Of a DNA stretch of 64,000 bases, positions 32,063 to 33,576 are shown in pieces; the stretch's first letter is position 1; the number at the start of each line of letters is the position of its first letter. The position numbers and the translations under genes are program-made. Location of the stretch: positions 1-64,000 of the forward strand of contig JAOACS010000015.1 in assembly GCA_026417655.1 (NCBI GenBank), read 5' to 3'. This DNA is from Syntrophobacterales bacterium (lineage in GTDB: Bacteria > Desulfobacterota > Syntrophobacteria > Syntrophobacterales > Thermodesulforhabdaceae). The notes under the pieces were generated by a model. That model had not been told where the DNA came from, did no database searches, and worked only from the letters and a program-made list of their open reading frames with translations.

Positions 32063-32085
32063 TGATATTTTTGTTGGTTATGAAT

Positions 32086-32119
32086 GAAGGGTTCGGGACC
32101 TAGAAAACCCGAGCCCTTC
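32086..32119. repeat. Strong hairpin after the phosphohexomutase gene
   Basis: GAAGGGTTCGGG at 32086-32097 pairs with CCCGAGCCCTTC at 32108-32119 (one G-T pair), loop of 10. No T-run follows on either strand, so it is not a standard terminator; it may protect the mRNA 3' end or act with other factors. Confidence 0.55.
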
Positions 32120-32154
32120 GTAGAGGGCAGAGCGAGAGGAAGGGTCGGTCTATT

Positions 32155-33576
32155 ATGATAAGGCGAATTACTTTGAAAGATTTTATGAGCCATAGAGACA
32201 CCTCCATTGAACTTAACGGTGGAGTAACGGTTCTTACGGGTCCAAACAACATAGGAAAAAGCGCTGTGGTAGAGGCTCTTCGATGTGTTGTTGAGAACCC
32301 GGCCTCTCAAGAGCTAATACGTCACGGTGCATCAAAGGCCGTTGTGAGTATTGAATTAGATTCTGGTGAGGTTATCACCTGGGAGCGGACCCCTACCTCA
32401 TCGCGATATAAGATTTTCAAGGATGGTAGGGAAGAGATCTACGCAAAGGTTGGCAATAATGTTCCCGAAGATGTGAAAAAACTTCTTAGAATCTCGCCGG
32501 TCATTACTGGAGACAACGAAGAAGTTAACGTTCATATCGCCCTTCAAAAGGATCCGATTTTTATTCCCTCCGGATCAAGAGCTGCTGGGTTTTTTGCCGC
32601 CTCTACAGAGGCTCATTATCTTATTAGGATGCAACAAATCCTTAAGACGAAGGCTGATATTAAAAAAGCGAGAAGGAAGGAGATTGAAGAAGAAGTTACA
32701 AGGCTTCAAAGGCTAGTAGAGGCTTATCTTCCTTTGGATACCATCGGAGAAATGTTTTCCACAATAGATAGGCTTGAAACTGAAATAAAAAGACTTGAAG
32801 AGGCTATTCCTCTCCTTTTGGAAAATATTGAAAAATTGGAAATAACTGTCGGTGAAGTAACTTCTCTTAAAGCCCAATACGAGGTTTTTGAAGGTATTAA
32901 GGAACCACCCCCTATAAACAACACTGTTCCCCTTAAAGAATTGGTTAACGCTATGACCTCTGTTATAAGTTATCTTAACTACTTGGGGGAATTGGAAGCT
33001 ATTTTAGAACAGCTTGAATCCCCTCCAGAAATAAGGTCTACAGGGGAGCTTTATAACTACCTCTCAAATATTAGTGCTCTAACTGCTACTGTTCAGCATC
33101 TTGATTTAATAGATAGGGAATTGAAAAATCTTCTTCCCCCACCGGATATTTATCCATCTAAGGATCTTTCCAATCTCATTTCTCACATAGAAGAACTTGA
33201 GAGGGAAAGATTAGGACTTTCAGAGGAGAATCTACTACTTTCATCGTTAAAGCCCTTTCCTGATTTGCGTCCAATTGATGAATTAAGATCCTTTATTGGC
33301 AAGATAAAGTCCATAACAGAGGAAATGGCACTTCTTGGTAAATACCAAGAAATTATCTTCGATTTAAAGCCACCACCGGAGCTTAAGAGCCCACACGAAA
33401 TAACAGCTCTTAGGAACCTCATAACCAATATAGGGGATGTGGAAAGAAAAATAACGAAGGAAGAGGAGGAATATGCTGAGATCGAAAGACTTTTACAAAA
33501 AAGGCGGTCAGAGATTGAAGAAAAACTAAGAACTATCCGTATCTGTCCCCTCTGTAACCAACCAATTACCGGCTAA
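32155..33576 (+). CDS. Rad50/SMC-like half protein with 39-residue repeats and terminal CxxC
   Basis: 473 residues. The N-terminus is an ABC-ATPase N-lobe of Rad50/SbcC type: MIRRITLKDFMSHRDTSIEL, Walker A GPNNIGKS at 29-36, a Q-loop-like region near 131. A helical part follows. Residues ~251-447 are five units of exactly 39 residues, each opening with a P-P/F-P-[DE]-[IL] motif (Pro-Pro ends at 253, 291, 330, 369, 408). The protein ends with CPLC at 464-467 like a Rad50 zinc hook, then ITG and stop. There is no Walker B, signature motif or returning coil. No partner nuclease is adjacent. The function is unknown; a DNA-repair or DNA-tethering role is only inference. Confidence 0.8.
   Translation: MIRRITLKDFMSHRDTSIELNGGVTVLTGPNNIGKSAVVEALRCVVENPASQELIRHGASKAVVSIELDSGEVITWERTPTSSRYKIFKDGREEIYAKVGNNVPEDVKKLLRISPVITGDNEEVNVHIALQKDPIFIPSGSRAAGFFAASTEAHYLIRMQQILKTKADIKKARRKEIEEEVTRLQRLVEAYLPLDTIGEMFSTIDRLETEIKRLEEAIPLLLENIEKLEITVGEVTSLKAQYEVFEGIKEPPPINNTVPLKELVNAMTSVISYLNYLGELEAILEQLESPPEIRSTGELYNYLSNISALTATVQHLDLIDRELKNLLPPPDIYPSKDLSNLISHIEELERERLGLSEENLLLSSLKPFPDLRPIDELRSFIGKIKSITEEMALLGKYQEIIFDLKPPPELKSPHEITALRNLITNIGDVERKITKEEEEYAEIERLLQKRRSEIEEKLRTIRICPLCNQPITG

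Follow-up and report, generated by a model that had tools for sequence, protein, structure and literature searches.

A gene in the window (the whole 64,000-nucleotide stretch of Syntrophobacterales DNA analysed here) is most likely one half of the DNA-break-repair ATPase Rad50, which is made as two proteins in the host and its relatives. Judged from the sequences, the Rad50 chain is divided at the zinc-hook turn, with one protein (N-half) carrying the Walker A motif, the ascending arm and the CxxC motif, and a second protein (C-lobe, or C) carrying the rest. We estimate a probability of about 0.83 that the N-half is part of a split Mre11-Rad50-type complex, together with the C-lobe, a small coiled-coil protein (S) and a phosphoesterase (M), of which we infer the assembly and biochemistry.

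The natural cut exactly at the hook, together with a natural permutation of the same chain, would show that the link between the N- and C-lobes is dispensable, and would let lobes, arm and hook be changed independently. Further, the arm varies in exact 39-residue steps, which gives a ready-made set of natural lengths for studying the function of arm length, a question that is open for both Rad50 and SMC proteins. As the C-lobe genes match no Pfam, NCBIfam or PADLOC model, probable DNA-repair genes have been missed in sulfate reducers, planctomycetes, phages and megaplasmids.

Half-length gene and its product

The N-half gene and its features in the window are listed below with the evidence for each.

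32155..33576, + strand: predicted N-half of split Rad50 (473 aa); ORF, Pfam AAA_23, Foldseek matches to Rad50 N-lobe chains; single copy in the host genome (G000)
32155..32610, + strand: predicted N-lobe of ABC ATPase head (residues 1-152); AlphaFold2 secondary structure, Foldseek 9a9j_A, 1ii8_A, 1f2u_C
32239..32262, + strand: Walker A GPNNIGKS (residues 29-36); sequence, conservation in homologues
32611..32892, + strand: predicted arm base of two long helices (residues 153-191, 194-246); AlphaFold2 secondary structure
32905..33489, + strand: five motif copies in a 39-residue register; self-alignment and shuffles, whole-unit gain and loss in homologues, predicted helices
33544..33555, + strand: predicted terminal zinc-hook half CPLC (residues 464-467); invariance of C464 and C467, CxxC near the C-terminus of chromosomal, phage and megaplasmid N-halves

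A sequence-only reading of this DNA had recognised a Rad50/SbcC N-lobe with the Walker A motif GPNNIGKS, and the searches bear this out. Pfam AAA_23 matches residues 4-225 with a score exceeding its cut-off (E 2.9e-15), the nearest sequences of solved structure are Rad50 N-lobes, and the best Foldseek matches of an AlphaFold2 model (48 sequences, mean pLDDT 80) are the Rad50 N-lobe chains 9a9j_A (E 1.1e-6), 1ii8_A and 1f2u_C, all with E values around 1e-6. NCBIfam gave sub-threshold Rad50 matches only. Neither the Walker A residues G29, N31, N32, G34, K35 and S36 nor the cysteines C464 and C467 vary among 48 homologues. The protein thus combines a Rad50-type N-lobe with a CxxC zinc-hook motif, which is terminal here and central in Rad50/SbcC.

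The polypeptide stops right after CPLC, as the same reading had noted, with six residues following the motif; the stop is genuine and the ORF intact. A genome of the same genus (G001) also has a half-length ORF, with 47% identity to the window protein, preceded by the same gene order of MFS transporter, nucleotidyltransferase and phosphomannomutase. A frameshift or misassembly, named beforehand as what could overturn the reading, is ruled out by the conserved half-length homologues and by this synteny. On the 3' side of the N-half there is an opposite-strand gene, and no C-lobe gene adjoins the N-half within the window. Scans for DNA-level repeats, promoters and terminators at the locus gave no signal above chance. 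A GC-rich hairpin without a T-run (GGGTTCGGG ... CCCGAGCCC) lies at window positions 32085-32135, in the gap separating the N-half from the phosphomannomutase gene.

Candidate partner genes in the host genome

In relatives, N-half homologues are followed by genes for a calcineurin-type phosphoesterase (M), a coiled coil of about 100 aa (S) and a protein of 220-250 aa (C) with the motifs GQGGSVCN, LVLDEQDCW and ISHH. The host genome carries the N-half alone on contig 7, and M, S and C consecutively, with overlapping ends, on contig 20, approximately as follows.

G000:C20:6223-7200: M, phosphoesterase
G000:C20:7187-7486: S, coiled coil
G000:C20:7476-8129: C, candidate C-lobe

The host C-lobe (217 aa) is 61% identical to its counterpart in genome G004, and the host M 55%. 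It consists of a short coil, a signature region with Gly-Gly, a Walker B motif and an H-loop, and is the only C-lobe match in the genome, located on a separate contig from the N-half. The sequence-only reading held that the missing lobe is supplied by another protein, to be sought genome-wide by its Walker B and signature motifs, or else that the protein does something different. The first alternative is supported: a candidate gene lies on another contig, clustered with S and an Mre11-like phosphoesterase, and the pairing is backed by the co-occurrence of the two halves, by their shared operon in most relatives and by megaplasmid fusions. G001 has the same dispersed layout. Since it also shares the upstream neighbours of the N-half and a lipoprotein-like gene 3' of C, the operon of N and M-S-C probably broke once, in the ancestor of the two genomes. 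No match to the canonical SbcC Walker B model PF13558 above cut-off, nor to the canonical SbcC model TIGR00618 at E 1e-20, was found in the host genome.

The separate C protein has Walker B, the H-loop and a predicted Rad50 fold. Its model (pLDDT 88) matches the Rad50 C-lobe chains 9a9j_B (E 3.6e-8) and 1f2t_B (9.9e-8) in Foldseek, and the viral structures closest to it belong to phage proteins some 200 residues long that stand alone. It belongs to no family in Pfam, NCBIfam or PADLOC, and its profile match to canonical SbcC C-lobes is not significant (hhalign E 0.12); predicted fold, motif order and the fusions together point to its identity as a C-lobe. The LSGG signature is absent from these proteins: C-lobes have GQGG[SA]V.N, whereas LSGGE is invariant in nine canonical SbcC. 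In the host C-lobe the signature Ser is replaced by Gln (GQGGS for LSGGE), and the ATP chemistry may differ from that of Rad50 given this residue.

The host M resembles an Mre11/SbcD partner, with the metal-binding motifs GDPH, GDLFH, GNHD, THH and NGHLH. Its G004 homologue matches Pfam Metallophos (1.4e-10), and no NCBIfam match to M exceeded the cut-off. All five motif patterns are present in 69 of 77 M proteins, the remaining ones being short of one.

Distribution of the probable split system

A scan for C-lobes, covering one genome per species and making no use of the N-half, returned 122 loci, and 80 of them were retained. These come mainly from Desulfobacterota and Planctomycetota, with a few from Poribacteria, Spirochaetes and Bacillota MAGs. 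The active-site motifs LDEQDCW and SHH are conserved in the C-lobes, in the 80-locus set partly by selection, as the scan patterns included LDEQDCW. The four genes stand in the order N-M-S-C on one strand at 57 of the 80 loci. Another 15 have M-S-C only; each of them begins no more than about 1.1 kb from a contig end, where a full N-half would not be visible. The rest are S-C (1/80) or C alone (7/80), and three of these eight are cut by a contig end. At L115, L116, L117, L125 and L169 the C-lobe gene has no N, M or S nearby in the examined stretch, a layout resembling dispersal. One planctomycetotal locus (L154:2338-4608) encodes a 754-aa N-half ORF without CxxC near its end, in a four-gene operon that is otherwise normal.

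Of 395 genomes of the host's phylum, Desulfobacterota, 20 encode the N-half, and the 19 with a C-lobe are all among these (Fisher 1.7e-31 with kinship ignored; 7 families). The additional genome, G009, holds a decayed remnant (L043:2191-2430, - strand) that comprises only part of the N-lobe, plus a stop. Another remnant, in G011 (L044:2198-2977, - strand), consists of N-lobe pieces without Walker A joined to a C-lobe tail. Canonical SbcC is absent, at E 1e-20, from G000, G001 and G004 and present in 5/19 split-system genomes as against 83/376 others, and mutual exclusion of the two systems was thus not seen (p 0.78). Because these five genomes retain canonical SbcC, the split system is not a simple replacement of it, and the two can coexist.

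Megaplasmid fusions and phages

On eight megaplasmids, from Alteromonas, Vibrio, two Pseudomonas, Variovorax, Aeromonas, Rhizobium and Methylorubrum, the two halves form a single chain with the C-lobe first, the N-half second and CxxC at the end, that is, a circularly permuted Rad50. An M or a degenerate M lies just downstream, and S was recognised just upstream in seven of the eight. The megaplasmid order S-C-N-M is a rotation of N-M-S-C. The phosphoesterases of the gamma-proteobacterial megaplasmids (L046:9026-9832, L048:9281-10153, L049:9145-10086, L199:5329-6102, L202:5181-6104) have lost their metal-binding motifs; those of the alpha- and beta-proteobacterial ones (L198, L200, L201) retain them. 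The ATPase is therefore not a single N-to-C chain with antiparallel arms joining its lobes, being split in chromosomes and phages and permuted on megaplasmids.

In phage vB_BboS-125 and on a Bacillus velezensis plasmid, N, a small coil, C and M are each encoded by a gene of their own. In the phage, the N-half and the small coil are separated by a gene with an AP2 domain, which is frequent in homing endonucleases (L045:7407-7979). Out of 28 IMG/VR loci, 23 encode a half-length protein with CxxC 8-21 residues before the end. The C-lobe scan of viral contigs found none at that sensitivity; three IMG/VR loci found via the N-half do encode a C-lobe. In a FastTree phylogeny of N-lobes, 90 split or permuted sequences are set apart from nine canonical SbcC (support 0.96). 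The 56 chromosomal sequences group as one clade (0.98) and the eight fused ones as another (0.95), and the phage sequences do not form a clade. This is compatible with a possible phage reservoir of the split system.

A 39-residue repeat in the arm

The strongest self-alignment lag of the window arm is 39 residues, a score reached by none of 2000 shuffles (about 8.6 SD), followed by lag 78. The motif copies start at residues 251, 290, 329, 368 and 407. Hence, of the five exact 39-residue repeats described in the sequence-only reading, the exact spacing holds, and the exactness of the units does not: the sequences have diverged, and the fourth copy reads FPDL and not PP. According to AlphaFold2, each unit would comprise a helix of about 28 residues (27-29 predicted) and a PP linker of about 11 residues, the linker being of low confidence. 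The predicted arm helices span residues 258-285, 297-323, 336-363, 375-403 and 413-461, with the fifth unit continuing into the terminal helix.

The gene had by implication been taken as unique, which proved wrong, as the family is widespread and 56 of the 57 N-halves tested have 39 as their strongest lag. In 48 of the 57, the distance from the conserved FFAA segment to CxxC equals 237+39k residues, falling into classes of 237 (n=11), 276 (15), 315 (7), 354 (13), 393 (1) and 432 (1); the other nine, including the window protein (318), are at most 4 residues off such a value. Additionally, the N-half alignment has gaps equal to one whole unit, and whole units have been gained and lost among homologues. 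In line with what was supposed, the periodicity was not found in canonical arms: nine canonical SbcC from the same phylum have their CxxC mid-protein and no 39-residue signal (z at lag 39: -1.7 to 2.6).

Proposed mechanism and alternative explanations

By analogy with established Mre11-Rad50 biology, from which we infer the composite head, ATP engagement, cleavage by M and the shared zinc, one N-half and one C-lobe would form a composite ABC head, and two such heads would sandwich ATP, as in Rad50. M would sit at the head-proximal coil and cut DNA ends or hairpins, and two N-half C-termini would share one zinc, tethering the arms at their tip. Wherever S is recognised it precedes C, matching the place of the descending arm in a normal Rad50, and S plus the C-lobe coil may for this reason be the severed descending arm. 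Since these coils fall short of the length needed to pair with the full N arm and do not vary in length with unit number, the repeat section is probably a self-contained spacer, and its 39-residue units would be modules that set arm length. We give about even odds to the broader proposal of a distinct and widespread Mre11-Rad50 branch in phages, megaplasmids and chromosomes, with a head of two separately made chains, a hook formed by chain ends and, in place of an ordinary coiled coil, an arm built as a rod of 3 to 8 helix-plus-proline units of 39 residues each. The length of this rod would be quantised, and it would act as a ruler from the DNA-bound heads to the hook.

An unlikely alternative is anti-phage defence, with the N-half as a Lamassu-like, Gabija-like or other OLD/AAA ATPase and the partners as effectors. 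PADLOC does match the N-half to LmuB (3.5e-12), AriA and GajA, but these matches stem mainly from the generic N-lobe P-loop region, and the host C-lobe, M and S have no PADLOC match. A Lamassu system comprises LmuA and LmuC together with full-length LmuB, whose Walker B Glu is usually changed to Gln (PMC10586767), whereas here the Glu is kept and the partner is an Mre11-like phosphoesterase; no LmuA or LmuC partners were found beside the split-system genes. A Pfam scan of the N-half and one fused protein revealed no TOPRIM domain of the Gabija GajA/OLD type.

Slightly less probable still is a purely structural role, in which N-halves homodimerise via zinc and their proline-rich arms as a tether, without ATPase cycling with the C-lobe. 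Such a role would suit an N-half that lacks Walker B and has the arm and CxxC as its most regular features, and also the several gamma-proteobacterial megaplasmids in which the ATPase is retained and the metal motifs of the phosphoesterase are gone; against it stand the invariance of Walker A in 48 homologues, the finding that, across the phylum sample, no intact N-half occurs without a C-lobe, and the existence of fusions of the two. That the gene is a decayed, truncated leftover of an ordinary Rad50 is hardly credible: true decay is known in G009 and G011 and the window gene is no longer in an operon, but it contains neither a stop nor a frameshift, G001 retains the N-half at the same location, and the terminal CxxC, Walker A and half length are kept across phyla and phages.

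Relation to known systems

The proposed split Rad50 shares with Mre11-Rad50/SbcCD the Walker A N-lobe, the Walker B C-lobe fold, the CxxC hook and an Mre11-type phosphoesterase. It differs in that the ATPase is two chains split at the hook, with GQGGS in place of LSGG and an extra coil protein of about 100 aa, and in its 39-residue modular arm, which the nine canonical SbcC controls do not have. Neither the libraries nor the open-access literature searched describe a split Rad50, and an earlier report may exist elsewhere.

Fusions of Mre11 and Rad50 have been described from Mimivirus and others, two of them noted to be without one P-loop segment (PMC3175470). Like the split system, they are gene rearrangements of this machine that viruses and plasmids have spread, but they join Mre11 to Rad50 in one chain, whereas here Rad50 itself is split and, on megaplasmids, permuted. 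Lamassu LmuB is similarly a short Rad50-like ATPase, in many cases with a zinc-hook motif, but has both lobes in a single chain and LmuA and LmuC as partners (PMC10586767). Other published oddities nearby are the hinge-less SMC (PMC12153180) and ASRP (PMC9389158), and none of these four is a split Rad50. In the phage protein library, two separate entries that give no hint of one split ATPase match the two halves: phrog_16465 ('exonuclease', 491 aa) matches the N-half (1.2e-30), and phrog_15167 ('ATPase', 211 aa) matches the C-lobe (host 1.4e-9; phage gp35 6.1e-105).
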